A DNA stretch of 62,525 bases from an uncultured Bacteroidales bacterium (GTDB lineage Bacteria; Bacteroidota; Bacteroidia; Bacteroidales; FEN-979): positions 1-62,525 of the forward strand of contig CAIWTA010000003.1 in assembly GCA_903915465.1 (NCBI GenBank). The letters run 5' to 3'. Position numbers and translations under genes: made by a program. This document shows positions 19,081-55,287 of the stretch, piece after piece. Positions within the stretch are counted from its first letter, which is position 1. Each line of letters begins with the position of its first letter. The notes below the pieces were generated by a model. That model saw nothing but the letters and a program-made list of their open reading frames with translations. It searched no databases and was not told the DNA's origin.

Positions 19081-22000
19081 ATGAAAAAGCGAGTCTTTAT
19101 TTGCTTAGGCATTCTGATGTCAGTTTCCTGCGTCTATGCTGCCTATTTTTCATTCACACCTTATGTTGTCAAACAACCAAACGGAACTGTAATTAATTGT
19201 TTTGTTTCAGGTGATGAATATTTTAACTGGTTGCACGACAAAGAAGGTTATACAATCATTCAGGCTCCTGATGGTTATTTCTATTATGGAATTGCTTCCG
19301 ACGGTTTGGTAAGACCAAGTTCTTACAAGGTCAATGAAGTTCGGCCATCAGATGTCGGACTTCGTGCATGGGCAAAGATCTCGAAAGCCGAATATTTGCA
19401 CAGACGTGCGATTTATCAATACAATCCCCAGCCATCCATTCGTGCACCACATACGGGCGTTTTAAACAACATTGTTGTCTACATCAGGTTTTCTGATGAT
19501 ACCGAATTCACAAACACACGGCAATCTTTTGATGATAAGTTTAACCTTATGCCCGGTATTTCATTGAAATCCTATTATTCTGATGTGTCGTATAATCAAC
19601 TTACTGTGAGTTCAACACATTATCCGGTGTGTGCAATGACAACCAATCTTTCATATCAGGATTCGCATCCCCGGAGTTATTTTGAGCCTTATAATGCTAC
19701 AACAAATCCAAACGGATATAACGGTGACACTGAGCAAACGTTTCGGGAACATACTTTGTTGCGAGATGCCATTGATTGGATTAATATTAACTCACCGGTA
19801 CCAACAAGTCTCAATATTGATGGTGATAATGATGGCAATGTTGATAATGTATGTTTCAATGTACGAGGAAATAATGGGGCGTGGGCTTCTTTACTTTGGG
19901 CGCATAGTTGGGCGCTCTATTCTTATAATGTTATGATCAATGGGAAACGGGTTTGGGGATATACTTTTCAGCCTGAAACTCAAATAGATGTGCAGACATT
20001 GTGTCATGAAATGTTTCATTCAATCGGTGCTCCCGATTTATATCATTATAGTTATGACGGGCTTCAACCGGTTCAGTACTGGGATTTAATGGAACAAGGT
20101 TTTGGCCATATGGGGGCATATATGAAGTGGAAATATGCAAATAATACGTGGATTGGAAGCATTCCGGAGATAACTTCATCAGGAACCTATACGCTCAATC
20201 AGCTTTCTTCTTCAACAAATAATTGTTATAAAATTGCTTCTCCAAATTCTACTTCAGAGTATTTTGTTGTGGAATACCGCAAAGCTACAGGTACTTTTGA
20301 AAGTAACCTGCCTGGTTCCGGGCTTCTTGTATATCGGATCAATCCTGCGCTCAACGGCAATGCCAGTGGTCCGCCTGATGAAGTTTATATTTATCGAATT
20401 TACGGGACCACAACAGTTAATGGTTCACCGAATAACGCATTTTTTTCTCTTGAATCTGGGCGAACATCCATTAACGATGCTACAAATCCCAGCTGTTTTC
20501 TTGGAAATGGAAATCCCGGAGGGCTTGATATTTCTAATATAACAAGTGCCGGATCCACGATTTCATTTACTATAAGTATCAATGGTATTGGCACTCCTAC
20601 TAATTTCACTGCCACCCCAGTGAGTACTTCCCAAATTAATTTGCAATGGTTGAAAAACGGTAATAGTGATAACGTTATGCTTGCCTGGAGTGCAACACCA
20701 ACTTTTGGTACACCTGTTAACGGAGCAACTTATGTTTCCGGGAACACAATACCAGGAGGAGGAACGGTTCTGTTTTCAGGAGCAGGGACAACTTTCAATC
20801 ATACCGGCCTCTCTCCATCAACAAAATATTATTATAAACTTTGGTCTGTAACTTCAGGTAATAATTATTCTAATGGCATTAGTCAAAATGCGACTACTTT
20901 GTGCACTAGTTCATCTCTCCCTTATTCGCAGAGCTTCCTGTCTGAAGTCTTTCCACAATGCTGGTCTACTCAATTTTCAGGGACCGGTGCTGTAGATAGC
21001 TGGGGACTCTCCAATACTACTTTTGCAGGCGGATCAGCTTTTGAGATGAAATCTACTTTTCAAAATGTCATTTCCGGAATAACACGTCTCGTGACGTTGC
21101 CTATAAACACTACCGGCATGACGGTATTGAACTTAAGTTTCAAGCACATGCTAGATGATTACGGTCCCGGGGCTACTTTGCGGATACAATCAAGCACGAA
21201 CGGCAGTACCTGGACTAATGAAGGATGGTCGTTAGCAACATATTCAGACTCCAATGTCGGACCAGCAACAATATCAACAACAATCACCCACAATCTGAAT
21301 TCTCCGAATACATTCATTTCGTTTACGATTGAAGGTAATCTGTTTCAATATGATTATTGGTACATTGACGATGTATCTATTTCAGGTTCATCAACATATG
21401 CCCCAACTGTCAGCACCACGACCGCAACTGCCATTACACAAATATCTGCCACGTCTGGTGGCACTGTAACTGCTGCCGGAGCTTCTGATGTTACCGCACG
21501 CGGGGTATGCTGGAGTACTTCTGCATCTCCCACAATTGCAGGCAATCATACTACCGACGGCTCAGGCCTCGGTGGGTTTGTCAGTTTAATCACAGGATTA
21601 TCTCCGAGTACGACTTATCATGTAAGAGCCTATGCCACAAACAGCAGTGCCACTTCCTATGGAAATGATCTTCCTTTTACTACCCTTTGTGGGGCTATTA
21701 ATTCTTTCCCCTGGAGCGAAGGTTTTGAAAATGGCGGAGTTATTCCAAACTGCTGGACCCAAGAACGGGTTGCTGGTTCAGGAATTGATTGGACATTTAT
21801 CACCGGGAACGGAAGCAACAATCCTGTATCGGCCCATGCTGGATCCTATAATGCATGCCTTAAAGATGCGTCTTCTACCGATAACAAAACCAAGCTCATA
21901 ACACCTTCTATTAACCTGGCAGTCCTGATCGCCCCACAACTCAAATTCTGGCATACCCAGGCTGCATGGGGAGGAGACCAGGATAAATTGATCGTGTATT

Positions 22001-23019
22001 ACAGAACCTCTTCTACCGGAGCATGGACTTCTCTGGCCACATATACTACAAGTATTACATCCTGGACACAGGAAACTATTTCATTACCAGGATCTTCGGC
22101 AACATATTATATTGCTTTTGAAGGTAATGCAAAATATGGTTTTGGCGTTTGCCTGGATGATGTATCTGTTGTGGGTACGTCTCCTTCCCTTACGGTCACT
22201 CCGTTTAATCAGCCCGTTTCGGCTGTTGCCGGATCAACTTCTTTTTCTGTGTTTTCCAATTCAACCTGGACAGCAGCAAGCAACCAGTCATGGTGTATCG
22301 TAACTCCTGCCGGTTCTGGAAATGGAACCATTACAGCCAATTATACACTAAATCCATCCGGTTCTTCAAGGGTAGCTGAAATTACCGTAACTGTTGCCGG
22401 AGTGACTCCTGTCGTGGCAACAGTCACCCAAGCCGGATCACCGGATAAGGTACTCACTTTGACGGCATTTTTAGAAGGTCTTTATGATGGAAATGGCATG
22501 ATGCATCCGGCTATGGACGAAAACGGTACGCATTGGGGAGCCACAATTGCCGATAAGATCACAGTTGAGTTACATGATGCAGCTAACTATCCAAATATTA
22601 TTTATAGCGATGGAAATATTTTGTTGAATACCAATGGATCTGCTTCAGTTACAATTCCCGGCATTCATAATGGAAGTTATTATATTACAATCAAACATCG
22701 TAACAGTATTGAAACCCTGAGTGCGGTTCCGATTTCATTTTTGATGGCATCAATCGGATTTTCTTTTGATGCACAATCAAAAGCCTATGGATCCAACTTA
22801 CTACAGACGACAGACGGCAGATGGGTTGTTTTTGGAGGAGATGCGAACCAGGATGGTATAATCGACGGAAGTGATTTGTCTATTATCGAAAATTTGGCAA
22901 GCATGGCTGCTACAGGCTACTTGCCTGAAGATGTCAATGGAGACGGGTTAATTGATGCATCTGATCTTTCGATTGTAGGGAACAATGCAAATTTTGCAAT
23001 TGTTGCAATAACTCCTTAG
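19081..23019 (+). CDS. Secreted M6-family metalloprotease with dockerin-like tail
   Basis: 1312 residues from the ATG at 19081 (an in-frame TTG at 19075 adds two). Signal peptide 1-21. The N-terminal half is an M6 (immune inhibitor A-like) protease with zinc motif HEMFHSIGAPD, first His at residue 309. Then come an Fn3 domain (about 502-608), a choice-of-anchor J/MAM-like domain (611-769), an Fn3-like 'ARGVCWSTS' module (774-870), a second choice-of-anchor J (871-1032), a BACON domain (1037-1119) and the shared C-terminal module (1120-1312). The last has two calcium loops, DANQDGIIDGSD and DVNGDGLIDASD, and ends in ITP. It is the first of eight such genes. No T9SS type A or B tail is present. 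Confidence 0.9.
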   Translation: MKKRVFICLGILMSVSCVYAAYFSFTPYVVKQPNGTVINCFVSGDEYFNWLHDKEGYTIIQAPDGYFYYGIASDGLVRPSSYKVNEVRPSDVGLRAWAKISKAEYLHRRAIYQYNPQPSIRAPHTGVLNNIVVYIRFSDDTEFTNTRQSFDDKFNLMPGISLKSYYSDVSYNQLTVSSTHYPVCAMTTNLSYQDSHPRSYFEPYNATTNPNGYNGDTEQTFREHTLLRDAIDWININSPVPTSLNIDGDNDGNVDNVCFNVRGNNGAWASLLWAHSWALYSYNVMINGKRVWGYTFQPETQIDVQTLCHEMFHSIGAPDLYHYSYDGLQPVQYWDLMEQGFGHMGAYMKWKYANNTWIGSIPEITSSGTYTLNQLSSSTNNCYKIASPNSTSEYFVVEYRKATGTFESNLPGSGLLVYRINPALNGNASGPPDEVYIYRIYGTTTVNGSPNNAFFSLESGRTSINDATNPSCFLGNGNPGGLDISNITSAGSTISFTISINGIGTPTNFTATPVSTSQINLQWLKNGNSDNVMLAWSATPTFGTPVNGATYVSGNTIPGGGTVLFSGAGTTFNHTGLSPSTKYYYKLWSVTSGNNYSNGISQNATTLCTSSSLPYSQSFLSEVFPQCWSTQFSGTGAVDSWGLSNTTFAGGSAFEMKSTFQNVISGITRLVTLPINTTGMTVLNLSFKHMLDDYGPGATLRIQSSTNGSTWTNEGWSLATYSDSNVGPATISTTITHNLNSPNTFISFTIEGNLFQYDYWYIDDVSISGSSTYAPTVSTTTATAITQISATSGGTVTAAGASDVTARGVCWSTSASPTIAGNHTTDGSGLGGFVSLITGLSPSTTYHVRAYATNSSATSYGNDLPFTTLCGAINSFPWSEGFENGGVIPNCWTQERVAGSGIDWTFITGNGSNNPVSAHAGSYNACLKDASSTDNKTKLITPSINLAVLIAPQLKFWHTQAAWGGDQDKLIVYYRTSSTGAWTSLATYTTSITSWTQETISLPGSSATYYIAFEGNAKYGFGVCLDDVSVVGTSPSLTVTPFNQPVSAVAGSTSFSVFSNSTWTAASNQSWCIVTPAGSGNGTITANYTLNPSGSSRVAEITVTVAGVTPVVATVTQAGSPDKVLTLTAFLEGLYDGNGMMHPAMDENGTHWGATIADKITVELHDAANYPNIIYSDGNILLNTNGSASVTIPGIHNGSYYITIKHRNSIETLSAVPISFLMASIGFSFDAQSKAYGSNLLQTTDGRWVVFGGDANQDGIIDGSDLSIIENLASMAATGYLPEDVNGDGLIDASDLSIVGNNANFAIVAITP

Positions 23020-23707: not shown

Positions 23708-26700
23708 ATGGGAATAAGAATTTTACTATTAATTCTTTCTTTTTGTATTGGTACTCTTACGTCACAGGCCCAGGATCGTCCCGCACGTCCAACCAGCATT
23801 GTGACGGGGACTTTTATTGGGATCAGTAAGCCTCTGCGTGATCTTCCCCAAATGACACAGCAGGAGTTCGACAGGTTAGGAGAGAAAGCAAAAACCAAAC
23901 AGTTAAACGAACGTCTTAAGCTCCGTAGTTATCCTTTCGCTTCCACTGCACTTCCAAAGGGGGCCGACCCGGTTTGGCAACAAACCATGGGAACTGCAGG
24001 TGGTAGCAGAGAGCCAGCCGCAAACTTCAATGGCCAGGATTCTCCCTATTATCCGCCGGATTGTAATGGAGCCGTTGGTCCTTCTCATTATATGCAGGCC
24101 ATTAATTGTGTTTATTCTATTTACAATAAATCAGGTACGTTGGTTGCCGGGCCCACGAATATGAATCTCCTTTTTGGCAGCGTTCCTGGTACTACTTATA
24201 ATGACGGTGATCCTGTTATATTGTACGACGAGCAGGCTGGACGCTGGCTAGCTACTGAATTCTCCATCAGCGGATCGACTGACTATATGCTTATGGCTGT
24301 ATCAACAACCAGTGACCCTACCGGACCCTGGTATCAATATTCGTTTGTTGTTGCCATTATGCCGGATTATCCAAAATTTGGTGTCTGGCGGGATGGATAT
24401 TACATGGGTGATAACAACAGTTCCGGCAACGACATTTATGTATTTCAACGCTCCCAGATGCTTGTTGGCGGTACAGCACAGATGATAGGTTTTGATAATC
24501 CTTACAGACCTACATCTGTTGATGGATTTATGATGGTTCCACCTGTTGATAATGATGGCTCTTTTGCTCCAACCAATGCACCAGGAACTTTTATAGCATT
24601 TAATGATGATGCCATTGGTGGTGGTGCAGATGAATTATGGATTTACGAATTGTCTGTTAATTGGAGCACTCCTTCTTCGTCGACATTTTCGCGGGTTCAG
24701 CAAATCCCAGTTGCAGCATTCAGCTCAAACTTTGGAACAACCTGGAACAACATTTCCCAACCGACCTCACAGAAATTAGATGCCATTCCACAGGTCATAA
24801 TGAATGTGCCCCAGTATCGTAATTTTGGCACCTACCAGACAATCGTATGTTGCCATACCGTAAATGTTGACAATAATACTGCCACGAACCATGCAGGCAT
24901 CCGTTGGTATGAACTACGAAGGGGAACTCAGGTTTCGGGTAGCTGGGCTATCAGGCAACAAGGCACTTATGCTCCAGATGCACATTCGAGATGGATGGGG
25001 AGTATCATGCTTAACGGAAGTGGTAAAATCGGGTTGGGGTACTCTGCATCAAGTTCTACCGTATATCCAGGTATTCGGTATTGCGGGCAGAGTTCAGTGT
25101 CTTACGCAAATGCTTCGGGGGTTTTAGATATTCCTGAGGGCATCATACAAGATGGCGCCAATGCACAATCATCTTACAATCGCTGGGGAGATTATTCAGA
25201 CTTGTCAGTGGATCCGGTTGACGGCCAAACTTTCTGGTACACTACTGAATACATTGGTAGTGGTGGGGTGAGGAAAACAAAAATTGCTTCGTTTAAAATC
25301 GGTAACATTCCGGTTGCTACAACAATGGCTGCAACTGCTGTTACCGCAACCACGGCCACATTAAACGGGAAAATCAATCCGGCCGGTCTTTCTACTAATT
25401 ACAATTTCGATTGGGGAACTACCACCAGTTATGGAAATAGTACAGCTATTCTTTCTGCCGGGTCGGGAATTACAGAAGTGTCAGTAAATGCAAGCCTGAC
25501 CGGTCTTAATCTTGGTACGGCATATCACTTCAGAATAGTTGCATCAAATTCTGATGGCACCACAAATGGTGATGATCTTTTCTTCACACCTGGCAGTGCC
25601 ACTGTAATCACAAGCCCCCTATCATCCATTACTTTAACAACTGCATCTTCCGGAGGAAATATAACATCCGATGGAGGTTTCGCTGTAACTGCCCGCGGAG
25701 TCTGCTGGAGTACTTCCGCAAATCCTTCAATAACGGGGAATCATACAACAGATGGTTCAGGACTTGGCGTTTTCTCAAGCGTATTATCGGGGTTAACGCT
25801 GAATACTACTTACCATGTGAGGGCGTATGCGGTAAATGGAAGTGGTACAAACTATGGCAATGAGCTGATATTTACCACATTATGCGGAATCTACAATCCT
25901 CCTTTCGTTGAAAGTTTTTCTGGTACAACCATTCCAACTTGCTGGTCGCAGTTTGATAATCAGGGTAGCGGACAGGTATGGTTGTTTGGCTCGATCACGG
26001 GAGTTTCTCCCAGCCCGTCATTAACCGGGAATTATGCATATTTAAATAGCGATGCATATGGCAGCGGTTTTTCACAAAATGCGGATCTGATCTCCCCAAC
26101 CATCAATCTTACTGCATATTCAGCAATCACACTTCAATTCAATCATTATTTTAAGGCTTATTCAGGATCAGCCGGCACTTTATCTTATAGCATTGATAAT
26201 GGATTTAACTGGACCCAGATAGCCACATTTGTTACGACTTCAGTTTCAAATCCAGTTCTTTTTAGTCAAAACATCCCGGCTGCTGCAGGTCATGCCCAGG
26301 TAAAATTCAAATGGAACTTTACCGGCAGTTATAGTTACTATTGGGCTTTTGATGATGTCTCTGTGACAGGCACTTCATCAAGTGCCCCGGTTGTTGCCAC
26401 CACAGTTGCCTCTGCTATAACTCAAACATCTGCCATGGCGGGAGGGAATGTGACTTCTCCCGGCTCATCAGGTGTTACAGCACGCGGTGTATGTTGGGGT
26501 ACTTCTTTATCTCCAACGATTGCAGGCAATCATACTACTGATGGCTCTGGAACAGGTGTATTTTCAAGTTCAATTACAGGTTTAATTTGCGGAACAACAT
26601 ACCATGTAAGAGCCTATGCTACAAATAGCAGCGGCACCTCCTATGGAGATGCTCTTCCTTTCACAACCCTTTGCGGGTCTATTGCTGCTTTCCCCTGGAC

Positions 26701-28003
26701 TGAAAGTTTTGAAAACGGAGGGTTAATTCCAAATTGCTGGTCACAAGAGCAGGTGAATAGTTCTGGCATTTTCTGGAATTTTATTTCCGGAAGCGGGAAT
26801 AATAATCCACCTTCCGCTCATGCCGGTTTTTATAATGCCTGCCTTAATGATGCCTCTTCTATCGATAACAAAACCAAGCTCATAACGCCGCCTGTAAACT
26901 TGTCATCACTGGTTAACCCACAACTCAAATTCTGGCACACCCAGGCAGCCTGGGGCGGAGACCAGGATAAACTGATCGTTTATTACAGAACTTCTTCTAC
27001 GGGAACTTGGATTTCTCTGGCTACTTACACCAGTAGTATAACATCCTGGACTCAGGAAACTATTTCATTACCCGCTGCTTCCACAGCATACTATATTGCT
27101 TTTGAAGGAAATGCCAAATTTGGTTATGGCATTTGCCTTGATGATGTTTCCATCACAGGTACATCTCCTTCCCTGACGGTTACTCCTTCTAACCAGTATG
27201 TTACGGTTGTTGCCGGGACAACCGCTTTTACTGTGACTTCCAATTCATCCTGGACAGCTACAAGCAACCAGTTATGGTGTACCGTGACTCCATCCGGGGC
27301 AGGTAATGGAATAATTACAGCCAATTATACACAGAATGCATCCGGTTCTTCAAGGGTGGCGGAAATTACTGTAACGGCAGCTGGGTTAGCACCTATTGTG
27401 GTGACGGTTACAGAATCCGGATCACAGGGTAGGATCCTTAATTTAACAGTTTTTTTAGAAGGCCTTTACGATGGAAATGGTATGATGCATCCGGCTGTAG
27501 ATCAAAACGGTGCGCATTGGGGGGTTACAATTGCTGATAAAATCATAGTAGAGTTGCATGATGCAGTTAACTATTCCAATATTATATACTACGATGCCAA
27601 TGTTTTTCTGAACACCAATGGATCTGCATCAGTTACAATTCCTGAAATTTATACTGGAAATTATTATATCACAATCAAGAACCGTAACAGCATTGAAACC
27701 ATGAGTGCGTTTTTCGTTTCTTTTTCGACACCTTCCATCGTATTTTCTTTTGATTCACCATCGAAAGCGTATGGTTCCAACTTACAAGAAATGATTGATG
27801 GCAGATGGGTTATTTTTGGAGGAGATTTGAACCAGGATGGAATTGTAGATGCCGGAGATATATCGCTGTTAGACAATCTGGTACCATTAGCATTGAGCGG
27901 ATATCTTCCTGAAGATGCCAACGGTGATGGCCTGGTTGATTCTTCAGATCTTTCTCTTGTGGGAAATAATGCTGTAAGTGCAGTAATGGCAAAGACTCCA
28001 TAA
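23708..28003 (+). CDS. Large secreted protein, uncharacterised N-domain, dockerin-like tail (paralog 1)
   Basis: 1431 residues. Signal peptide about 1-22 (ends SQAQ). The ~510-residue N-terminal domain (23-532) is not one I can name. It carries PYYPPDCNGAVGPSHYM, GPTNMNLLFGSVPG, VPPVDNDG, GTFIAFNDDAIGGGADELW and YAPDAHSRWMGS, and looks like an all-beta, propeller-like fold. It is shared with the genes at 32382 and 50230. Then: Fn3-like (533-630), ARGVCW module (630-726), choice-of-anchor J (727-892), a second ARGVCW module (893-990), a second choice-of-anchor J (992-1152), BACON (1155-1238) and the shared tail (1240-1431) with DLNQDGIVDAGD and DANGDGLVDSSD, ending KTP. Probably a cell-surface binding protein. 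Confidence 0.82.
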   Translation: MGIRILLLILSFCIGTLTSQAQDRPARPTSIVTGTFIGISKPLRDLPQMTQQEFDRLGEKAKTKQLNERLKLRSYPFASTALPKGADPVWQQTMGTAGGSREPAANFNGQDSPYYPPDCNGAVGPSHYMQAINCVYSIYNKSGTLVAGPTNMNLLFGSVPGTTYNDGDPVILYDEQAGRWLATEFSISGSTDYMLMAVSTTSDPTGPWYQYSFVVAIMPDYPKFGVWRDGYYMGDNNSSGNDIYVFQRSQMLVGGTAQMIGFDNPYRPTSVDGFMMVPPVDNDGSFAPTNAPGTFIAFNDDAIGGGADELWIYELSVNWSTPSSSTFSRVQQIPVAAFSSNFGTTWNNISQPTSQKLDAIPQVIMNVPQYRNFGTYQTIVCCHTVNVDNNTATNHAGIRWYELRRGTQVSGSWAIRQQGTYAPDAHSRWMGSIMLNGSGKIGLGYSASSSTVYPGIRYCGQSSVSYANASGVLDIPEGIIQDGANAQSSYNRWGDYSDLSVDPVDGQTFWYTTEYIGSGGVRKTKIASFKIGNIPVATTMAATAVTATTATLNGKINPAGLSTNYNFDWGTTTSYGNSTAILSAGSGITEVSVNASLTGLNLGTAYHFRIVASNSDGTTNGDDLFFTPGSATVITSPLSSITLTTASSGGNITSDGGFAVTARGVCWSTSANPSITGNHTTDGSGLGVFSSVLSGLTLNTTYHVRAYAVNGSGTNYGNELIFTTLCGIYNPPFVESFSGTTIPTCWSQFDNQGSGQVWLFGSITGVSPSPSLTGNYAYLNSDAYGSGFSQNADLISPTINLTAYSAITLQFNHYFKAYSGSAGTLSYSIDNGFNWTQIATFVTTSVSNPVLFSQNIPAAAGHAQVKFKWNFTGSYSYYWAFDDVSVTGTSSSAPVVATTVASAITQTSAMAGGNVTSPGSSGVTARGVCWGTSLSPTIAGNHTTDGSGTGVFSSSITGLICGTTYHVRAYATNSSGTSYGDALPFTTLCGSIAAFPWTESFENGGLIPNCWSQEQVNSSGIFWNFISGSGNNNPPSAHAGFYNACLNDASSIDNKTKLITPPVNLSSLVNPQLKFWHTQAAWGGDQDKLIVYYRTSSTGTWISLATYTSSITSWTQETISLPAASTAYYIAFEGNAKFGYGICLDDVSITGTSPSLTVTPSNQYVTVVAGTTAFTVTSNSSWTATSNQLWCTVTPSGAGNGIITANYTQNASGSSRVAEITVTAAGLAPIVVTVTESGSQGRILNLTVFLEGLYDGNGMMHPAVDQNGAHWGVTIADKIIVELHDAVNYSNIIYYDANVFLNTNGSASVTIPEIYTGNYYITIKNRNSIETMSAFFVSFSTPSIVFSFDSPSKAYGSNLQEMIDGRWVIFGGDLNQDGIVDAGDISLLDNLVPLALSGYLPEDANGDGLVDSSDLSLVGNNAVSAVMAKTP

Positions 28004-40500: not shown

Positions 40501-41264
40501 CCTGGACTAATGAAACCTGGTCAATTGCCACAACGGCGACAAATGTTGGCCCTGCAACAGTCAGTACCACAGTTACCAACAATCTGAATTCACCGAATAC
40601 GTATATTGCTTTTATCATTGAAGGAGATCTTTATGAATACGACTATTGGTATATCGATGATGTATCCATTACAGGCAATGCTCCAACAGCGAGAGTGTTA
40701 AATCTGACATTATATCTGGAAGGAATTTATGCGGGAAATGCGGCTATGCGTACGGCTATGGATGAGAACGGAGCCCATTGGGGAACAACCATTGCGGATA
40801 AAATCACGGTTGAATTGCACAGCAGCTCAAATTATTCCACGATCCTGTACAGTACCGGTGCCATCAGCCTGAATACAAATGGAACGGCAACGGCAACTAT
40901 CCCTGGTACATACAGCGGAAGTTATTATATGACAATTAAAAACCGGAACCATATTGAAACTGTAAGTGCAGCACTAATAGCCTTCAGCACACCGACAATC
41001 AATTATTCTTTCGATACACCATCAAAGGCTTACGGAGCAAACATGGGTCAGATGACAGATGGGAAATGGGTTTTATATGCAGGGGACGCAAATCAGGACG
41101 GAATTATTGACGGGAGCGATCTGTCCAATATTGAAAATCTCGCGAACAATGCATCCAGTGGTTACCTTCCTGAAGATATCAATGGGGATGGTCTTGTTGA
41201 TGGTTCAGACTTGTCGGCTGGTGGTAACAATGCTGATATGGCAATTGGAGCATCAACGCCATAA
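37527..41264 (+). CDS. Secreted Asp-box (sialidase-like) propeller with PKD and CUB domains, dockerin-like tail
   Basis: 1245 residues. Signal peptide 1-22 (ends QSFAQ). The N-terminal part (about 30-494) is a BNR/Asp-box propeller with boxes SGDAGTTW, STNDAVTWS, STNGGVSYS, STNGGTTWS and SVDAGTSWT. I cannot identify the Arg triad and nucleophilic Tyr of active sialidases, so binding only is possible. Two PKD domains (495-573, 575-658), a CUB domain (660-786), an Fn3 (790-892), a choice-of-anchor J/MAM-like domain (893-1052) and the shared tail (1056-1245; DANQDGIIDGSD, DINGDGLVDGSD, end STP) follow. It has no BACON domain, unlike its neighbours. It starts 81 bp after the previous stop. Confidence 0.87.
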   Translation: MKLFYSFLGMLFLIGLANQSFAQSEVVDTRIDNMSYWMNMARKGLVPYNPVIPIAPAEFKGSQIQAKGVKTLDSPDVPVTNLTNVTESENSVFINPNNNQYILNSNNSTSWSGGSVGSLYGANYFQSGDAGTTWGGSYNGAGGANSGDPTTAIGLNGRQYVNYISSSDGQGIAYTDNAVSWTTATIAPNPGSLADKNHMWIDNSATSPYEGNLYTAWTDFGGTDDSQIKISRSTNDAVTWSTGVILSSAILAGSHNQGVNIQTGPGGQVYVTWAVYDSWPSDETALGFAKSTNGGVSYSAATRIISNIRGIRTTAVLKSMRVNSFPSMAVDISNGPNSGNIYIVWTNTGVPGTNTGTNKSVYLIRSTNGGTTWSTPIRVNQGTFAEGKESYSPWISCDSETGTLSVIFYDDRATASTACETWVAYSVDAGTSWTDFKVSDVSFTPSPISGLASSYMGDYLGITSKGGRVYPCWTDTRGGLFMTYVSPFIIGLNAGFTASATTVCTGSSVTFTDQSSGPPTSWTWSFPGGSPSSFIGKVPPSIAYNTPGTYNVTLVVSDGITTDTETKTGLITVAGVFANFSGTPTPVFVGNTVTFTDNSLCTPTSWNWTFNGGTPAAYSGQNPPPITYSTLGTYDVSLTVTKGSSSDTKTRTGYINVLPPEFIMSSTTVTTCTGNFYDPGGSTGNYSDGQDFTMVFNPGITGNALRFVFSSFLLESQTSCSYDYLKIYDGNSISAALLGTYCGSTSPGTVTANNSTGSLTFVFHSDVSLNYSGWVAAVTCVSGIVANPGTFTATPFSSSQINLGWTKNASNNNVMVVWSATSTFGTPVNGTTYSAGNPLPGGGTILYLGSGISFNHTLLNTNTTYYYKAFSYDNVHAYSTGMTANATTLCGTATLPFSESFSGTTLPNCWSTQISGTGAVNKWTVSTTNRAGGTANEMMSTYQNINPATTRLITPPLNTTGMTLLNLNFKHFLDAYAAGATLRIQSSTDKVTWTNETWSIATTATNVGPATVSTTVTNNLNSPNTYIAFIIEGDLYEYDYWYIDDVSITGNAPTARVLNLTLYLEGIYAGNAAMRTAMDENGAHWGTTIADKITVELHSSSNYSTILYSTGAISLNTNGTATATIPGTYSGSYYMTIKNRNHIETVSAALIAFSTPTINYSFDTPSKAYGANMGQMTDGKWVLYAGDANQDGIIDGSDLSNIENLANNASSGYLPEDINGDGLVDGSDLSAGGNNADMAIGASTP

Positions 41265-45789: not shown

Positions 45790-48700
45790 ATGAAATCCTG
45801 TTCACGTTATTTTTCAATCACAGTCATTCTTTTTCTTCTGGGCAACCACTTCTCTTCTTTTTCCCAGGTGACATCATCCAATGACACTTCCAATTATCCC
45901 TTTTGGACGACCATGATGCAGGATATCAATGCGAATTTCTATTCCACGCAAAGTGCATTTGAAAAATACTGGGCAAACCGGACTGACTATAAAGGCAATG
46001 GATGGAAAGTCTTTAAACGGTGGGAATATATTAACCGCGACAGGGTGCTTCCAGATGGTAAACTTCAACCACCTGATTATGTGAAAAACGAATACCTCAA
46101 ATATACTAATTCACAAAAATCCGTAAGCGGAGCCTGGACGCAAATAGGCCCAATTTCGCTTCCGGCTAATTCTACAAGTCAGCCAAATGGCTTAGGCAGG
46201 ATAAATACCATCGGGTTTCATCCAACCGATGCAAATACGTTCTACATCGGCTCTCCATCAGGTGGATTCTGGAAAACAAGTGATGGAGGAACTACATGGA
46301 CAGTGCTTTCAGCTTCCATGCCCACGCTTGGTGTCTCTGCAATTCTTGTTCATCCTGCCACTCCTGATATCATCTGGATTGGTACCGGCGACCGCGATGC
46401 CGGAGATGCTCCCGGAATGGGCGTATATAAAAGCACTGATGGTGGAAGTACCTGGAACTCATCGAACAGCGGAATGGGAAGTGTTACAGTTGGAATGCTT
46501 ATAATGCATCCTTCAGATCCTAATATAATACTTGCTGCCACCAGCGGGGGAATCTATAAGTCAACAAATGGTGGTTCTGCATGGACCAGAAAATCATCAA
46601 ACACTTCCACCTATAAGGATATCAAATTCAAACCCGGCGATCCAACGATCGTGTATGCAACTGAAAACGGGAATTTTTATCGTTCAACAAACACCGGAGA
46701 TTCATGGACTCAGATTTCTATTACTGTCAGTGGATCACGATTGGTTATTGGTGTCTCTCCAGCCAACTCCGCTTATGTTTACCTGATGCAGACAAATGGT
46801 GTCTTTGCAGGTATTTTACGATCGGCTGACAGCGGGCTTACTTTTACAACTCAATCTACAACACCCAATATTATGGACTATGCATGTGATGGCAGCGGAA
46901 CAAGTAGCCAGGCATGGTATGATTTGTGTATTGCCGTGGATCCGAATAATGCTAATATCTTATATCTCGGAGGAATAAATATCTGGAAAAGCATAAACGG
47001 AGGAACAACGCTCACCATAAACACACATTGGGTGGGAAGTTCCTGGGGGACCAGTTGCGCCCCTTCCGTTCATGCAGATATCCATTCACTAAATTTCTCT
47101 CCGGTTGACGGCAAATTGTATACGGGGTGTGATGGCGGGATTTACAGGACAGCTAATGCAGGAACTACGTGGAGTGACCTTTCAGGTGGACTTGGGATTG
47201 CACAAGTTTACAAGATTGGCCAGAGTGCAACGAATTCGGGAATAACCATCAACGGTTACCAGGACAATGGAACCGCCACCTGCAACGGTTCCGCTTTTAC
47301 TACCGTCATTGGTGGCGATGGTATGGAATGTATCATTGATTATACAAACAGCAATTACAAATATGGAGCCCTCTATTATGGAGATATCCGACGATCAACC
47401 GGAAGCGGCTATTCCAAAATCGCCGCCAATGGAACGAATGGAATCACTGAAAGCGGCAACTGGGTTACTCCGTACATCTTACATAACACTGATCCGAACA
47501 TCATGTACGTCGGGTATAAAAATGTATGGCGCAGCAACAATGTTAAGGCTTCCTCTGCTTCATCGGTTACATGGACTGTGATCTCTTCAGGAGAAACATC
47601 AACTTGCACTGTATTAGAACAATCGCCTGCCAATAATGATATCCTTTATGTCGTTCGCAGTGGTCAGCTCAAACGCTCAGAAAATGCCAATGCCGCTACT
47701 CCAACCTGGATCAGTTGTACATTACCGGGAGGTTACACCCCGACTGACCTGGAAGCTCACCCAACACTGGCCAATATTGTTTATGCAACTGCTCAGTATA
47801 AGGTTTATAAATCTATTGATAAAGGTGTAACCTGGACAAATATTTCAGGGAATCTTCCTTTGGTCTACACCAATTGTCTTGTTTATGATAAAAACACAAA
47901 TGAAGGCTTATACGTTGGAAATGAGACTTCCATATATTACAAAGATGAAACCATGAGCAATTGGGTCACTTTCGGTAATGGTTTGCCTGTGGTTGACGTT
48001 CGGGAATTAGAAATTTATTACGATGCGACTCCGTCAAATAACCGGATAAAAGCGGCAACCTATGGCCGTGGACTCTGGCAAAGCGATCTGATTGAAACCG
48101 CGGTTGCTAACCCCTCAAATCTGGCGGCTGTTCCTGTAAGCACTTCGCAGATCAATCTGACATGGACAAAAAATACAAACAACAATGATGTTATGGTTGC
48201 ATGGTCTCCTGCAGGAACCTTTGGCACACCTGTAACAGGTACAACCTATGCAGCAGGGAGTTTGATTCCCGGTGGCAGTACAGTGATATATACCGGAAAT
48301 GCTTCGGCTTACGCCCATACCGGGCTTACGCCAAATACATTGTATTACTATAAGGCCTGGTCCTACGATGGAACTCACAAATATTCAAGCGGATCCGGGA
48401 CAGATACTTCAACACTCTGCGCAAAAATCACTTCTTTTCCCTGGAACGAAGGCTTTGAAAATGGCGGAGCGAGTCCCGGATGCTGGTCGCAGGAACAAAT
48501 CAGCAGTTCAGGTATTTATTGGACATTCATTACCGGAAACGGGAGCGCTAACCCAGCCACCACGCACGGAGGGACTTATAATGCTTGTCTGAAAGATGCT
48601 ACTCCGGCAGATAATAAGACAAAACTTATTTCACCATCTTTTGACATCACTTCGCTTCTAATTCCACAACTTACATTCTGGCATACTCAGCCTGTTTGGG

Positions 48701-49749
48701 GATCCAATCAGGATCAACTGATAGTATATTATAAAACATCATCCGGCGGGTCATGGACTGTACTTGCTACCTTTCCCGGCAGTATCACAAGCTGGACACA
48801 AGAAGCCATCAATTTACCTAATGCAAGTAATGATTATTTTATTGCTTTTGAAGGAAATGCCAAAAATGGCTATGGAATTTGCATCGATGATGTTTCAATT
48901 AAAAGCACAACACCAACTCTTACTGTAACTCCTCCAGACCGGCCTGTGACAAGTGCCGCAGGAAACTCAACTTTTACGGTTATCTCTAATTCAGCGTGGA
49001 CAGCTTTAAGCAACCAGCTATGGTGCACGGTAACGCCTTCCGGATTCGGAAACGGTACGATCACCGCTGTTTATGCAGAGAATACAAATACTTCGCCGCG
49101 CGTTGCCAATGTAACAGTTACTGTTGCTGGGCTGACACCGGTTGTTGTGACAGTTTCTCAGGCAGGCGCACCTTTAAGAACGTTTAATCTTACTGTATTT
49201 CTTGAAGGTCTCTATACAGGTCTCAGCACAATGCGACCGGCAATGGATGAAGTGAGTTACCATTGGGGAGCATCAATTGCTGATAAGCTAACCATTGAAT
49301 TGCATGATGGATCAAATTATTCAAATATTGTCTATACAGCTACGAATGTTTCGTTGAATACCAATGGAACTTCTTCATTTACACTTCCGTCATCCTATAA
49401 TGGAAATTATTATGTGACGATCAGGCACCGTAACCATATTTTGACTGCAACTGCTTTCCCGGTATCATTCAATACCTCAACAGTAAATTACAACTTTGAT
49501 CTTCCAGGTAAAGCATTTGGCAACAATCTCGGCGTGATGACAGATGGAAAATATGTTTTCTATGCAGGAGATGTGAATCAGGACGGGCTTGTAGACGGAA
49601 CTGATTTGTCGGATATCGACAATCGTTCAACCTTAGCTGCCGCCGGTTATCTCCCGGAAGATGTGAATGGTGACGGTTTGGTAGATGGTTCGGATCTTTC
49701 TGTAACGGGTAATAACGCTGATGTTGCAATTGGCGCGGTAACGCCTTGA
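45790..49749 (+). CDS. Secreted VPS10/sortilin-like Asp-box propeller with dockerin-like tail
   Basis: 1319 residues. Signal peptide about 1-26. The N-terminal ~770 residues form a large BNR/Asp-box propeller of the kind seen in sortilin-like and GH74-like proteins: TSDGGTTWT, STDGGSTWN, STNGGSAWT, STNTGDSWT, TANAGTTWS, SIDKGVTWT, with FHPTDANTFYIGSPSGGFW near the start. No GH74 catalytic Asp pair can be confirmed. Then Fn3 (774-877), choice-of-anchor J (878-1038), one BACON (1041-1125) and the shared tail (1126-1319; DVNQDGLVDGTD, DVNGDGLVDGSD, end VTP). The tail DNA is a mosaic: mostly like gene 32382, but the last ~80 bp like the upstream gene 41304. Confidence 0.86.
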   Translation: MKSCSRYFSITVILFLLGNHFSSFSQVTSSNDTSNYPFWTTMMQDINANFYSTQSAFEKYWANRTDYKGNGWKVFKRWEYINRDRVLPDGKLQPPDYVKNEYLKYTNSQKSVSGAWTQIGPISLPANSTSQPNGLGRINTIGFHPTDANTFYIGSPSGGFWKTSDGGTTWTVLSASMPTLGVSAILVHPATPDIIWIGTGDRDAGDAPGMGVYKSTDGGSTWNSSNSGMGSVTVGMLIMHPSDPNIILAATSGGIYKSTNGGSAWTRKSSNTSTYKDIKFKPGDPTIVYATENGNFYRSTNTGDSWTQISITVSGSRLVIGVSPANSAYVYLMQTNGVFAGILRSADSGLTFTTQSTTPNIMDYACDGSGTSSQAWYDLCIAVDPNNANILYLGGINIWKSINGGTTLTINTHWVGSSWGTSCAPSVHADIHSLNFSPVDGKLYTGCDGGIYRTANAGTTWSDLSGGLGIAQVYKIGQSATNSGITINGYQDNGTATCNGSAFTTVIGGDGMECIIDYTNSNYKYGALYYGDIRRSTGSGYSKIAANGTNGITESGNWVTPYILHNTDPNIMYVGYKNVWRSNNVKASSASSVTWTVISSGETSTCTVLEQSPANNDILYVVRSGQLKRSENANAATPTWISCTLPGGYTPTDLEAHPTLANIVYATAQYKVYKSIDKGVTWTNISGNLPLVYTNCLVYDKNTNEGLYVGNETSIYYKDETMSNWVTFGNGLPVVDVRELEIYYDATPSNNRIKAATYGRGLWQSDLIETAVANPSNLAAVPVSTSQINLTWTKNTNNNDVMVAWSPAGTFGTPVTGTTYAAGSLIPGGSTVIYTGNASAYAHTGLTPNTLYYYKAWSYDGTHKYSSGSGTDTSTLCAKITSFPWNEGFENGGASPGCWSQEQISSSGIYWTFITGNGSANPATTHGGTYNACLKDATPADNKTKLISPSFDITSLLIPQLTFWHTQPVWGSNQDQLIVYYKTSSGGSWTVLATFPGSITSWTQEAINLPNASNDYFIAFEGNAKNGYGICIDDVSIKSTTPTLTVTPPDRPVTSAAGNSTFTVISNSAWTALSNQLWCTVTPSGFGNGTITAVYAENTNTSPRVANVTVTVAGLTPVVVTVSQAGAPLRTFNLTVFLEGLYTGLSTMRPAMDEVSYHWGASIADKLTIELHDGSNYSNIVYTATNVSLNTNGTSSFTLPSSYNGNYYVTIRHRNHILTATAFPVSFNTSTVNYNFDLPGKAFGNNLGVMTDGKYVFYAGDVNQDGLVDGTDLSDIDNRSTLAAAGYLPEDVNGDGLVDGSDLSVTGNNADVAIGAVTP

Positions 49750-50129: not shown

Positions 50130-50229
50130 CTAAAGGCAAGTTACACATAATTCAATTCCGAATTTCTGTTTCGTAGTATAGAATCTTATTCTTGCAGTTT
50201 GTAATTTTTAAATATTTAAATCAACTCTG

Positions 50230-53200
50230 ATGAAAACAAGAACTTTACTTTTAATGGCCGCCTTCCTTTTGGGCTTCGTTGTTGTGAAAGCTCAGGATCG
50301 GCCAGTGCATCCGACCAGCATTGTGACCGGGACTTTTATCGGGATCAGTAAGCCTCTGCGTGATCTTCCAAAAATGACTCAGCAGGAGTTCGACAGGTTA
50401 GCCGAGAGAGCAAAAACCAAGCAGTTAAACGAAAGTCTTAAGCTCCGTAGTTATCCTTTTGCTTCTACTGCATTGCCTAAAGGCCCCGACCCGGTTTGGC
50501 AAAATGCCATGGGAAAATCGGGTGGTAACAGGGCTCCTATAGCAAACTTCAATGGCCAGGATTCTCCCTATTACCCGCCTGATTGTAATGGAGCCGTTGG
50601 TCCAAATCATTATATGCAGGATATTAATTGTGTTTATTCTATCTACACAAAATCAGGGACGCTCGTTGCCGGGCCAACGAATATGAACCTCTTATTTGGC
50701 AGCGTCCCCGGAGCCACATATAATGACGGTGACCCTGTTGTGTTATATGATGAACAGGCTGGCCGATGGTTAGCTACTGAGTTCTCCATCAGCGGAGCAA
50801 CAAACTATATCCTGATGGCTGTATCTACTACCGGAGATCCTACCGGAACCTGGTACCAATATTCATTTGTTGTAGCCTCCATGCCGGATTATCCTAAGTT
50901 TGGCGTCTGGAGAGACGGATATTATATGGCAGACAATAACAGTTCCGGAAAAGATATTTATGTATTTCAGCGTTCGCAGATGCTTACCGGCGGAACAGCT
51001 CTGAGTGTAGGGTTCGCCAATCCTAACAGACCAACATCTGTGGATGGATTTATGATGGTTCCTCCTGTGGATAATGATGGCGCTTTCGCTCCGGCAGGTT
51101 CACCCGGAACATTCATTGCTTTTAACGATGATGCCATTGGCGGAGGAACCGACCAGCTTTGGATATATGAACTTACAGCAAACTGGACTACTCCGGCTAA
51201 TTCCACTTTTTCAAGGGTTCAGCAAATCAATGTTGCGGCATTCAGCGCAAACTTTGGAAGCACATGGAATAATATTTCCCAATCTGGTTCAACCCAGAAA
51301 GTTGATGCCATTCCTCAGGTAATAATGAATGTGCCTCAATATCGGAATTTTGGCTCGTACCAGACCATCGTATGCTGCCATACCGTTGATGTGGATGGCT
51401 CGTATCATGCCGGAATTCGTTGGTACGAATTGCGCAGGGGAACGCAAACTTCAGGTAACTGGGCAGTCAGGCAACAAGGTACTTATGCCCCGGATGCACA
51501 TTCAAGATGGATGGGTAGCATCATGCTGAACGGAAGTGGTAAAATCGGATTGGGATATTCCATTTCAAGCACGTCATTATTCCCTGGAATCCGATATTGC
51601 GGGCAATCCTCCAGTGCATATAACAGCGCTTCCGGCACAATGGATTTACCAGAAGAAATAATCCAGACGGGAGCATATTCACAATCATCATATAACAGAT
51701 GGGGCGATTATTCAGACCTGTCAGTCGATCCCACGGATGATAACACCTTCTGGTTCACTACCGAATACATTGGCAGTGGTGGTGCCAGGAAAACAAAAAT
51801 TGCCTCCTTTAAATTCGGGAATGACCCGGCTGTTGTTACACTTGCCGCAACTTCGGTTATCGGATCGACTGCTACAATCAACGGAACGGTTAACCCTAAC
51901 GGACTTGCAACAACCTACTATTTTCAATGGGGAACTACACCCAGTTATGGGAATAATACAACCTCTGCTTCAGCAGGTTCAGGAGCCACGGCTGTTGCTG
52001 TATCAGCAAATCTTACAGGTCTGACTTCCGGAACAACCTATCATTTCAGTTTAGTGGCAACCAATAGTGATGGAACATCTACTGGCAGTGATCTTACATT
52101 CACTCCGGGCGCAGCAGTGGTGACCACTACAGCTGCCTCGGTCATTACAACAAACTCCGCCACATCAGGCGGTAATGTGATTTCTGATGGAGGATTGAGT
52201 GTTACAGCCCGCGGGGTGTGCTGGTCAACTTCTATTAACCCTACCATCATACCCGGCAGTTATACTACGAATGGCTCCGGAATTGGCGTATTCACTAGTT
52301 CTTTGACAGGATTATCAGCCAGCACTCTTTATCATGTAAGGGCTTATGCTACAAATTCAAGCGGTACATATTACGGAGATGATCTGACGTTCACCACTTT
52401 GTGTGGAACCATTACTTCGTTCCCATGGAATGAAGGATTTGAAAACGCAGGTTTAATTCCGAATTGCTGGACTCAAGAACAAGTGAACTCATCAGGACTA
52501 AATTTCACATTTGTCACCGGGAATGGTGCCAGCAATCCGGCAGCTGCACACGGCGGTACTTACAATGCATGTTTGAAAGATGCAACAACTGCGGATAATA
52601 TTACAAAACTTATCACGCCTTCGATCAACCTGGTTTCTCTTGGTAGTCCTGTACTTAAATTCTGGCACACCCAGGCCGTTTCCAGCACGCGTCAGGATAA
52701 ATTGATTGTCTATTACAAAACCGCTTACACTGCAGCTTGGACTACACTTGCTACTTATACCACCAGCATCACTGCATGGACAGAGGTAACCATCAACTTG
52801 CCTAATGCAAGCAGTGATTATTACATCGCTTTCGAAGGAAATGCAAAAAGAGGATATGGGGTTTGTATCGATGATGTTTCTATTACAGGTACGGTCACTC
52901 CTACACTTACTGTTACACCTTCCGACCGACCTGTTACGGCTGCTGCCGGAACAACTTCTTTTACGGCAACCACTGGTTCCGCATGGACTGCTTCAAGCAA
53001 CCAGACCTGGTGTACGGTTACTCCATCCGGAACTGGCACCGGGACAATTGCGGCGAATTATACTCAGAATACCACGTCTTCTTCCAGGGTAGCCAATATT
53101 ACAGTAACAGTTTCCGGGGTGACTCCAGTTGTTGTGACAGTTTCCCAAGCTGCTCCAACACTTTCAGTTACTCCTCCCAATCAACCTGTTACTGCTGATC

Positions 53201-55287
53201 CAGGGACAACTTCCTTTAGCGTTACTTCCAATTCTACATGGGCTGCTTTAAGCGATCAATCCTGGTGTACGGTTACGCCTTCCGGAACCGGCAGTGGATC
53301 AATTACCGCCATTTATTCTGCAAATGCATTATTTACCTCACGCGTTGCAAATATTACTGTTACAGCCTCCGGCACGACACCGGTTTTTGTAACTGTTACT
53401 CAAGCAGCCATAATACCAGCAATTTCAGTTACACCAACTGACCAGCCTGTGACTCCTGCTGCCGGAACAGCTTCCTTCGCTGTTACGTCCAATTCTGCAT
53501 GGATTGCCTCAAGTAACCAGACATGGTGCACTGTCACTCCTTCAGGAACCGGGAGTGGAACAATCACCGCAAATTATACAATCAACAATACAGCATCTTT
53601 GAGGGTTGCAACTGTCACGGTAACTGTTGCAGGATTAACTCCCGTGGTTGTTACGGTCACCCAGGCTGCTCCGACACTTTCGGTGACTCCTTCTGACCAG
53701 TCTGTGCCATATATTTCTGGATATACTTCATTTACAATAACTTCCAACACAGCTTGGATTGCTGAAAGCGACCAGGCCTGGTGCACAGTGACGCCCACCG
53801 ATTCCGGAACGATCACAGCAACTTGCTCTGAAAATCATACATATTCAGCGCGTATTGCAAACCTTACGGTAAATGTTGCCGGGCTGTCGCCGGTCGTTGT
53901 TACAGTAACACAAGCCGCAGCGCCACTACCTGAATTCAACTATACGATTGCAAATGATGTTCAAACATCCGACAAAACCCTGGAATTTGACCTCTATCTG
54001 CTCGATTATCAGCCATCAATTCCTTTTGAGCTTTCTATTATTCAGTCCGGGATTCTTGTCAATAGCGAAATTATCGATGGTGGTAACATCACAACTTCCA
54101 TCCTTTCAGGTTTTTCAGAACTGGTGGCAGTGCAACAGCCAACTGGTTGCGTTTGGGCTACCGGAACGCTCAATGGGTGTATCAAAATTACCCCCAAAGC
54201 TGGCCCTGGTTGTGGAAATGGAACGATAATCAGCACTACAGGATTGGGAACAAGAATATGCCGTGTACGGATAACTAATACCGTTCCTTTTACCGCCGGT
54301 TCGCAGGCTAACCTGGCTTTTAACTTTACAACTGCTCCGTATCCTACCAAGGTCTTCCAGTATTCAGGAATTCCTTGTATCAGCACAACGTTGACCACCA
54401 GTACCGCAAACTGCTTCAGTCTGGCTACAAATCCGGTATTGAACGGACCGCCAGCGTTGTCTGTTTCTCCATCGGATCAACCCGTTTACTCTCCGGCAGG
54501 ATCGATTCCTTTTGTAGTGACTGCGAATGCAAACTGGACAGCTACCAGCAATCAAACATGGTGTACGGTAACTCCTTATGGATACGCAAACGGTACTATC
54601 ACAGCTAATTATGATGCGAATCCCGATCCTTCACCACGTGTTGCCAATGTAACAGTTACTGTTGCTGGTCTTACACCGGTTGTTGTAACAGTTACCCAGG
54701 CAGGTGCACCTTTAAGAACGGTTAATCTCACCGTATTTCTTGAAGGTCTCTATACCGGTAACAGCACCATGCACCCGGCAATGGATGAGGTAGGTTACCA
54801 TTGGGGAGAAACAATTGCTGATAACCTGACCATTGAATTACATGACGGATCAAATTATTCAAATATTGTTTATACAGCTACTGACGTTTCGTTGAATACC
54901 AATGGCACTGCTTCAATTACGCTGTCTTCTTACTACAATGGATATTATTATGTTACGATCAGGCAGCGCAACCATATTTTGACTACAACTGCTCTCCCTA
55001 TTTTATTCCATTCTTCAACGATTAACTATGCTTTTGATGCTCCCGGCAAAGCCTATGGTGGCAATCTGCTTCTGATGATAGATGGAAAATATGTTTTCTA
55101 TGCAGGAGATGTAAACCAGGACGGTCTTGTAGACGGCACAGATTTATCCGATATCGACAATCGTTCCACCGTAGCTGCTAACGGTTATCTGCCGGAAGAT
55201 GTGAATGGTGACGGTTTGATTGATGGCTCCGACTTGTCTATTGCAGGTAACAATGCTGATATTGCAATTGGGGTAATCACGCCATGA
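50230..55287 (+). CDS. Large secreted protein, uncharacterised N-domain, five BACON domains, dockerin-like tail (paralog 3)
   Basis: 1685 residues. Signal peptide about 1-22 (ends VKAQ). The ~510-residue N-domain (23-535) is very close to that of gene 23708, sharing PTSIVTGTFIGISKPLRDLP and MTQQEFDRL. Then: Fn3-like (536-630), ARGVCW (630-728), choice-of-anchor J (729-890), four tandem BACON domains (about 894-1230), the ANDVQTSD module (about 1234-1405), a fifth BACON (about 1408-1490) and the shared tail (1492-1685) ending ITP. The gene is a mosaic: its N-domain follows gene 23708, while its third and fourth BACON units follow the first two of the M14 gene. It has its own promoter candidate and a terminator at 55326. 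Confidence 0.82.
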   Translation: MKTRTLLLMAAFLLGFVVVKAQDRPVHPTSIVTGTFIGISKPLRDLPKMTQQEFDRLAERAKTKQLNESLKLRSYPFASTALPKGPDPVWQNAMGKSGGNRAPIANFNGQDSPYYPPDCNGAVGPNHYMQDINCVYSIYTKSGTLVAGPTNMNLLFGSVPGATYNDGDPVVLYDEQAGRWLATEFSISGATNYILMAVSTTGDPTGTWYQYSFVVASMPDYPKFGVWRDGYYMADNNSSGKDIYVFQRSQMLTGGTALSVGFANPNRPTSVDGFMMVPPVDNDGAFAPAGSPGTFIAFNDDAIGGGTDQLWIYELTANWTTPANSTFSRVQQINVAAFSANFGSTWNNISQSGSTQKVDAIPQVIMNVPQYRNFGSYQTIVCCHTVDVDGSYHAGIRWYELRRGTQTSGNWAVRQQGTYAPDAHSRWMGSIMLNGSGKIGLGYSISSTSLFPGIRYCGQSSSAYNSASGTMDLPEEIIQTGAYSQSSYNRWGDYSDLSVDPTDDNTFWFTTEYIGSGGARKTKIASFKFGNDPAVVTLAATSVIGSTATINGTVNPNGLATTYYFQWGTTPSYGNNTTSASAGSGATAVAVSANLTGLTSGTTYHFSLVATNSDGTSTGSDLTFTPGAAVVTTTAASVITTNSATSGGNVISDGGLSVTARGVCWSTSINPTIIPGSYTTNGSGIGVFTSSLTGLSASTLYHVRAYATNSSGTYYGDDLTFTTLCGTITSFPWNEGFENAGLIPNCWTQEQVNSSGLNFTFVTGNGASNPAAAHGGTYNACLKDATTADNITKLITPSINLVSLGSPVLKFWHTQAVSSTRQDKLIVYYKTAYTAAWTTLATYTTSITAWTEVTINLPNASSDYYIAFEGNAKRGYGVCIDDVSITGTVTPTLTVTPSDRPVTAAAGTTSFTATTGSAWTASSNQTWCTVTPSGTGTGTIAANYTQNTTSSSRVANITVTVSGVTPVVVTVSQAAPTLSVTPPNQPVTADPGTTSFSVTSNSTWAALSDQSWCTVTPSGTGSGSITAIYSANALFTSRVANITVTASGTTPVFVTVTQAAIIPAISVTPTDQPVTPAAGTASFAVTSNSAWIASSNQTWCTVTPSGTGSGTITANYTINNTASLRVATVTVTVAGLTPVVVTVTQAAPTLSVTPSDQSVPYISGYTSFTITSNTAWIAESDQAWCTVTPTDSGTITATCSENHTYSARIANLTVNVAGLSPVVVTVTQAAAPLPEFNYTIANDVQTSDKTLEFDLYLLDYQPSIPFELSIIQSGILVNSEIIDGGNITTSILSGFSELVAVQQPTGCVWATGTLNGCIKITPKAGPGCGNGTIISTTGLGTRICRVRITNTVPFTAGSQANLAFNFTTAPYPTKVFQYSGIPCISTTLTTSTANCFSLATNPVLNGPPALSVSPSDQPVYSPAGSIPFVVTANANWTATSNQTWCTVTPYGYANGTITANYDANPDPSPRVANVTVTVAGLTPVVVTVTQAGAPLRTVNLTVFLEGLYTGNSTMHPAMDEVGYHWGETIADNLTIELHDGSNYSNIVYTATDVSLNTNGTASITLSSYYNGYYYVTIRQRNHILTTTALPILFHSSTINYAFDAPGKAYGGNLLLMIDGKYVFYAGDVNQDGLVDGTDLSDIDNRSTVAANGYLPEDVNGDGLIDGSDLSIAGNNADIAIGVITP
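52905..53925 (+). repeat. Four tandem BACON-domain repeats in gene 50230
   Basis: Four units of about 240-260 bp, each with L/I-S/T-V-T-P at the start and W-C in the middle. The third and fourth (about 53420-53920) are highly similar at DNA level to 30412-30912 in the M14 gene. Confidence 0.78.

Follow-up and report, generated by a model that had tools for sequence, protein, structure and literature searches.

Eight giant proteins and their common C-terminal end

The window, by which we mean the whole stretch of 62,525 nucleotides analysed here, carries eight consecutive giant genes on the forward strand. Their reading frames, at 19081, 23708, 28188, 32382, 37527, 41304, 45790 and 50230, are all open from these starts, and all eight products have a Sec signal peptide-like beginning as judged by eye and by a simple hydrophobicity count. 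Gene 1 (19081..23019) encodes an M6 metalloprotease part followed by choice-of-anchor J/MAM and BACON domains. Gene 3 (28188..32291) encodes an M14 zinc carboxypeptidase with MAM and three BACON domains, gene 5 (37527..41264) has PKD and CUB domains and no BACON reported, gene 6 (41304..45623) combines a trypsin-like peptidase with three BACON domains, and gene 7 (45790..49749) has a sortilin/BNR beta-propeller with MAM and BACON. The other three are gene 2 (23708..28003; MAM/BACON), gene 4 (32382..37445; five BACON) and gene 8 (50230..55287; choice-of-anchor J and five BACON), and these have in common an N-terminus of about 890 residues with 64-68% identity. The shared part spans 23708-26366, 32382-35042 and 50230-52885 and carries no named catalytic domain; a PDB search with that of gene 2 gave no match. 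An earlier note on this DNA had credited the eight genes with different N-terminal functions. This is true of the M6, M14, trypsin-like and propeller proteins; since three genes have one common N-terminus, there are six kinds of N-terminal part and not eight, and MAM- or BACON-type spacers recur in most of the proteins (zero to five BACON domains each).

All eight proteins end in the same tail, found at 22432..23016 in gene 1 (its last 195 residues, ending in Thr-Pro), 27416..28000 in gene 2, 31704..32288 in gene 3, 36858..37442 in gene 4, 40677..41261 in gene 5, 45036..45620 in gene 6, 49162..49746 in gene 7 and 54700..55284 in gene 8, always on the forward strand. The last 195 residues of the eight proteins align without a gap, at 57-69% identity to the gene 1 tail, and the module itself measures 182-195 residues, which bears out the common C-terminal module of about 190 residues that had been noticed from the letters. 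Two complete calcium loops (D-x-N-x-D-G-x-x-D-x-x-D) and the HWG motif, both also claimed earlier, are present in all eight. The loops stand in tandem and fit the F-hand pattern of dockerins. Two of the claimed features needed correction. The FLEGLY start is found in seven tails and reads YLEGIY in gene 5; the final Thr-Pro holds for the eight tails of the window, while among the 31 full modules found genome-wide the last pair is TP (15), LP (13), VP (2) or YP (1), and it is the proline that is conserved. Most of the remote members found in other genomes keep the order FL-x-G-x-Y, V-D-W-V-x-V-E-L-R, Y-Y-I-V-V-x-H-R-N-H-L and two calcium loops.

The genes around the cluster are of other kinds. 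Directly before it, at 15521-18835, lies a hybrid two-component sensor (Reg_prop propeller, Y_Y_Y, HisKA and HATPase), a candidate regulator. Behind it follow a gene whose product ends in a type A tail of the type IX secretion system (T9SS; 55513..57126, forward strand; TIGR04183, 44.4 bits), a PorP/SprF family T9SS membrane protein (57560..58510, reverse strand; TIGR03519, 264 bits) and a gene with a T9SS type B tail (58545..61838, reverse strand; TIGR04131, 56.5 bits). Models of T9SS types A, B and C reported nothing on the eight giant proteins at E<=0.01. The earlier reading, in which the eight have no T9SS tail and both types occur in neighbouring genes, thus stands.

We then looked at the module beyond the window. 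The genome to which the window belongs (G000; 4.07 Mb in 329 contigs) holds 35 module matches, of which 31 are full or nearly so, and 29 of these 31 form the end of their protein. The two internal copies lie at loci L109 (contig C171), where at least 500 residues come after the module, and L110 (contig C163), where 300 do; a Fib_succ_major domain follows the module in L109, and probably also in L110, to judge from one match to that domain among 73 ends. A profile of the eight tails matched in 46 of 392 Bacteroidota genomes, the window's genome included, and a broader profile built from 40 tails (A2) matched in 66, of which 56 had E<1e-12. We call these 56 the module genomes; the threshold was chosen after the table had been seen, and the ten weaker genomes, mostly with dockerin-only pieces, were left out of the co-occurrence counts. 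Copy numbers from the phylum searches are minimum values, since no more than 7 to 10 candidates were scored in each genome. Among 41 listed members with a stop codon (one from the window's genome), the module reaches the exact end in 17, comes within three residues of it in 31 and within 11 residues in 36. The module is therefore nearly always C-terminal and is seldom found inside a protein (two of 31 full copies). We considered the tails as a local peculiarity of the cluster and dropped this idea in view of the 31 full copies in the genome and the 56 of 392 genomes.

Two further sets of matches concern pieces of the module. Open frames of 1971-2197 residues in nine genomes (G160, G168, G351, G212, G313, G192, G109, G279 and G287), perhaps one orthologous protein, match the dockerin part of the tail profile and sometimes also pieces of the sandwich. 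Three virus-derived contigs (L272-L274) have a 45-residue match, at 47% identity, to the dockerin part.

Relation of the tail to dockerins

Dockerins are the plugs that fix cellulose-degrading enzymes on scaffolds, and cohesins are the matching sockets. Searching the PDB sequences with the A2 profile, we obtained 45 matches, and the best 27 of these, nearly all cellulosomal enzymes, scaffoldins or dockerins by entry name, rank above the first plain EF-hand protein. The best match is 2vn5_B (1.8e-6), and the X-dockerin of CipA (2b59_B) follows at 3.2e-5. Pfam Dockerin_1 (PF00404) matched 42 of 73 isolated tails at E<=0.01, with 29.1 bits for the one whose score is shown. On the eight whole proteins the same model stayed below its cut-off of 22.9 bits in every case, with six at 17.9-21.3 bits and two unreported. 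The tail is thus very probably a dockerin-type domain homologous to dockerins, as the profile comparison with cellulosomal chains ranking first indicates, and the "dockerin-like" of the earlier note can be taken in the sense of homology.

An AlphaFold2 model of the tail predicts a beta-sandwich at residues 40-90 with fair confidence (block means of 82-89, lower at its end) and a dockerin half of poor quality, mostly with pLDDT below 50. Performing Foldseek with this model, we found X-dockerin dyads at ranks 4, 6, 13, 18, 26 and 29. The X-dockerins (2b59_B, 5k39_B, 5g5d_B, 4fl4 and 3kcp) aligned over 190-206 columns with E values of 0.005-0.045 and a TM-score (query) of 0.28-0.36. The dockerin half predicted alone had a mean pLDDT of 53, and Foldseek gave two matches for it, both with E >5, which were set aside. 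When the whole model was compared by VIA-align, the best Z was 7.0, many Ig-like folds scored Z 5-6, the X-dockerins 4u3s and 3kcp scored 4.9, and a T9SS tail (8qb1) was among the Ig-like resemblances of the sandwich at Z 5.9. A fold-family claim from VIA-align was dropped since many Ig-like folds score Z 5-6. The beta-sandwich of the model is likely an X module, a label that we give with reserve in view of the low TM-scores and of the many Ig-like domains to which the sandwich by itself is similar.

Symmetric cohesin-binding surfaces that allow two orientations are described for type I dockerins (PMC12484212). For a comparison of the two calcium loops, 131 module matches were thinned to 72 by removing duplicates with the same last 90 residues; both loops were required, and one tail per genome or record was sampled (n=35) in three draws. 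At positions 9-11 the two loops of a protein agree at a rate of 0.57-0.59, compared with 0.15 when loop 2 is shuffled among the proteins (0 of 5000 shuffles per draw reached the observed rate). Within proteins, agreement exceeds the shuffled level at positions 5, 7, 9-11, 13, 14 and 16-18 but not at 2, 4 and 15, which speaks against a simple recent duplication. The calcium-ligand positions show a smaller excess (0.76 vs 0.65-0.66 shuffled, 0 of 5000), so concerted evolution may also account for the symmetry. Judged from these sequences, the two loops show the strong symmetry that dual-mode dockerins have. The loop motif is alike within a genome and different between genomes, with DG[ST]DLS in most tails of G000 and D[ST]ND[LM]G in most tails of G401, a relative in the window's family.

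These observations bear on the idea that the tail is a calcium-stabilised C-terminal cap which protects giant secreted proteins and has no partner. Such a cap would go with the two complete calcium loops in all eight tails and with proteins that look secreted. The within-protein symmetry at non-ligand positions and the similarity within a genome point to recognition instead, and a cap has no need of a nearly strict C-terminal placement. We regard the cap as very improbable.

Cohesins and T9SS tails in the same genomes

The window's genome has 10 places at which Pfam cohesins (PF00963) exceed the cut-off. Reading these loci, we counted 15 cohesin domains in nine reading frames and two weaker ones in two more, about 17 in total. 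A profile of 62 cohesins (A7), which contains many of the cohesins later counted with it, matched cellulosomal cohesins among solved structures with E values down to 1.4e-15. Two scaffoldin-like reading frames consist of four cohesins followed by the tail (773 residues at locus L102 and 782 at L103; 788 and 784 residues in the Pfam search), and Pfam at E<=0.01 gives only cohesins on them, with no carbohydrate-binding module. They coexist with the 31 full tails of this genome, whose enzymes are so called from their domains.

The gene neighbourhoods place cohesins, tails and T9SS ends side by side. Contig C34 (L102) has four genes one after another on the same strand. They encode a 2450-residue protein with cohesin and tail, the 773-residue protein with four cohesins and tail, a 660-residue protein with cohesin and type A tail, and another protein with a type A tail; upstream of the four there is one more type A gene, whose cohesin is weak. 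On contig C327 (L103) the 782-residue four-cohesin gene with its tail adjoins a type A gene with a weak cohesin, and contig C106 (L104) has a 669-residue gene with cohesin and type A tail. In the 660- and 669-residue proteins the type A tail would be the surface anchor, a role taken over from its family. Genes for cohesin plus tail adjoin genes for cohesin plus type A also in G014 and G342, and are one gene apart from them in G078.

A second cohesin-dockerin layout occurs in the phylum. At six loci (L145 in G093, L136 in G240, L168 in G266, L171 in G116, L146 in G014 and L160 in G070) proteins have an internal dockerin-like match, weak in some of them, beside a cohesin, and their T9SS end is type A-like. 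One or two cohesin matches each were also seen in G098, G149, G209, G213, G248, G256, G260, G284 and G291, which belong to a family (f19) in whose listed members SprA is missing.

Sorting domains of types A, B and C are known on proteins secreted by the T9SS (PMC10202324). Dockerin-tailed proteins and cohesin proteins differ in these domains. Searching with TIGR04183, TIGR04131 and NF033708 at E<=0.01, we found no match on any of 73 dockerin tails, 27 of which come from the window's own genome. In comparison, among 68 cohesin reading frames that have a complete end and no dockerin tail, 64 match type A and three type B (E<=0.01; the two sets may overlap); these loci were taken from the top-listed cohesin matches of 30 genomes plus the window's genome and are not a random sample. 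Type A matches occur at no fewer than 150 places in the window's genome. No homology between the dockerin tail and type A tails was found (hhalign probability 2.8%).

The M14 peptidase of gene 3 shows that one protein may carry either end. Its homologue in G397 (72% identity) has a type A tail and that in G401 (67%) a dockerin tail, and a paralogue in the window's own genome (55%) has a type A tail. Among the other homologues, those whose sequence we followed to the stop look like type A there; type A ends were judged by eye in all genomes except G397, G401 and the window's own.

This exchange feeds the strongest rival to docking, in which the tail would add a fourth class to the T9SS sorting signals of types A, B and C. 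The export machinery would read the X-dockerin, whose fold would be a reused scaffold with a T9SS or surface component as its partner. The position of the tail on the homologous M14 peptidases favours this proposal, as do the lack of any T9SS match on 73 tails, the 17 tail matches of G401 with no detectable cohesin, and the place of the sandwich among Ig-like folds that include a T9SS tail. Co-occurrence with T9SS genes, which the earlier note had proposed as a check, goes in the same direction: SprA is present in 56 of 56 module genomes, from tables compared by eye and by hand. The check has little power because SprA is present in 174 of the 179 sampled genera anyway. The proposal is further weakened by the missing sequence relation to type A (hhalign 2.8%) and by the conserved calcium loops and symmetric recognition positions, which are unexpected in a transport signal. 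We think it possible and, on this balance, unlikely.

We also checked how far tails and cohesins occur together. Matches of the cohesin profile A7 are present in 41 of 56 module genomes as against 117 of 336 others (Fisher p 1e-7 over the 392 genomes, a statistic that ignores relatedness), and at the level of families, from lists made by hand, in 20 of 24 as against 20 of 34 (p 0.08). All 66 genomes that match A2 include 42 with a PF00963 cohesin. In 14 of the 56 module genomes neither model finds a cohesin. The window's own family is uneven as well. G401 shows no cohesin beside its 17 tail matches, of which 13 are near full length, G397 has 26 cohesins and one tail, and G396 has 19 cohesins and two tails; G399 and G393 have tails without cohesins, G398, G402 and G400 cohesins without a tail, and G394 neither. 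The 14 genomes and this mismatch within the family rule out that the presence of cohesins explains the tail in every genome. Either the cohesin is not the partner everywhere, or partner cohesins escape the model.

The poor tracking within the family suits another explanation, in which the tail is a dockerin with a non-cohesin receptor at the surface, possibly lineage-specific, and the cohesins of the genome serve other partners. A single local receptor would lead one to expect loop residues that are specific to a genome, but so would a shared ancestry of the copies. Cohesin and tail stand in one reading frame in four genomes, with genes for cohesin plus type A beside or near, and this speaks for a link between the two. 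Dockerins are not known to bind folds other than cohesin. We consider such a receptor improbable.

A docking account and its place among known systems

In this organism the tail may dock on cohesins that are T9SS-anchored or scaffoldin-like. We give this account an even chance; it is the simplest one for the gene neighbourhoods and for the division of the tails. The tail would be a C-terminal docking module in two parts, first a beta-sandwich similar to an X module and then a dockerin with two calcium-binding loops and two-fold symmetry. About 30 secreted proteins would be mounted through it on cohesins, among them the window's set of M6, M14 and trypsin-like peptidases, a propeller and adhesion-type proteins. 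Two kinds of socket are proposed. The four-cohesin proteins, which themselves end in the tail, would be scaffoldin-like, and the one-cohesin proteins, because they end in a type A tail, would be exported by the T9SS and fixed at the cell surface. Such an assembly would work in a cellulosome-like manner, with proteins as at least some of its targets, and the T9SS tail would do what the surface anchor does in clostridia. The tails of this genome all resemble one another, and those of the four-cohesin proteins are no exception, so we see nothing that would stop the scaffoldins from binding themselves.

We infer that these dockerins bind these cohesins and that the sandwich is a true X module, and in the same way the route by which the tailed proteins would cross the outer membrane. 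The earlier note had taken the conserved end for a sorting, anchoring or docking signal. This was the right kind of answer, given the dockerin homology and the C-terminal position, and the cohesin side in the same genome had escaped it.

Docking and the export-signal account are joined in a further proposal. A dockerin-tailed protein would bind a type A-tailed cohesin in the periplasm, and the folded pair would be exported and anchored together; in lineages without cohesins, the export machinery would read the tail. If this were true, several different enzymes would share one T9SS signal, and the pairing of cohesin and dockerin would act as an adaptor not just in assembly but also in secretion. 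We hold it to be rather improbable.

If the docking account is right, a docking system with T9SS-anchored cohesins as its sockets is spread through parts of Bacteroidota and here serves peptidases among others. A class of C-terminal tails, seen in 56 of the 392 genomes sampled, takes the position in which one would look for a T9SS tail, and how its proteins leave the cell becomes a directly testable question.

Our literature search, mostly confined to papers outside subscription, returned no description of this tail family in Bacteroidota or of its relation to T9SS tails. Dockerins were reported earlier in rumen Bacteroidetes (PMC7480376). The likeness to our case lies in dockerin modules on Bacteroidota proteins; in the accessible portion of that report their function is undefined and no cohesin partner is given. 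A cellulosome-like arrangement with a C-terminal surface-attachment domain has been proposed for Ca. Stygibacter of the Cloacimonadota (PMC8542988). It differs from ours in the phylum and in its single scaffoldin of 3,755 residues with carbohydrate-binding modules, and the sections of the article available to us say nothing of a family of X-dockerin tails, of symmetric loops or of an exchange of tails.

The T9SS types A, B and C resemble the dockerin tail in that one C-terminal tail is found on otherwise unrelated secreted proteins, and the M14 case puts the dockerin tail in the type A position. They differ from it in that none of the 73 tails matches the three models and there is no profile similarity to type A.

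The closest comparison is with the X-dockerin of CipA from Clostridium thermocellum (2b59, 5g5d, 3kcp and 4fl4). In CipA the X-dockerin stands at the end of a multi-cohesin protein. Unlike CipA, our genome carries the same kind of tail on enzymes and scaffoldin-like proteins alike, the host belongs to the Bacteroidota, and the structural comparison comes from a model of low confidence with a TM-score (query) of at most 0.36. In both cases a beta-sandwich, predicted in ours, directly precedes a two-loop dockerin at the C-terminus, and consistent with this likeness are the profile match to 2b59_B (E 3.2e-5) and a Foldseek alignment that runs over the whole length of the tail.
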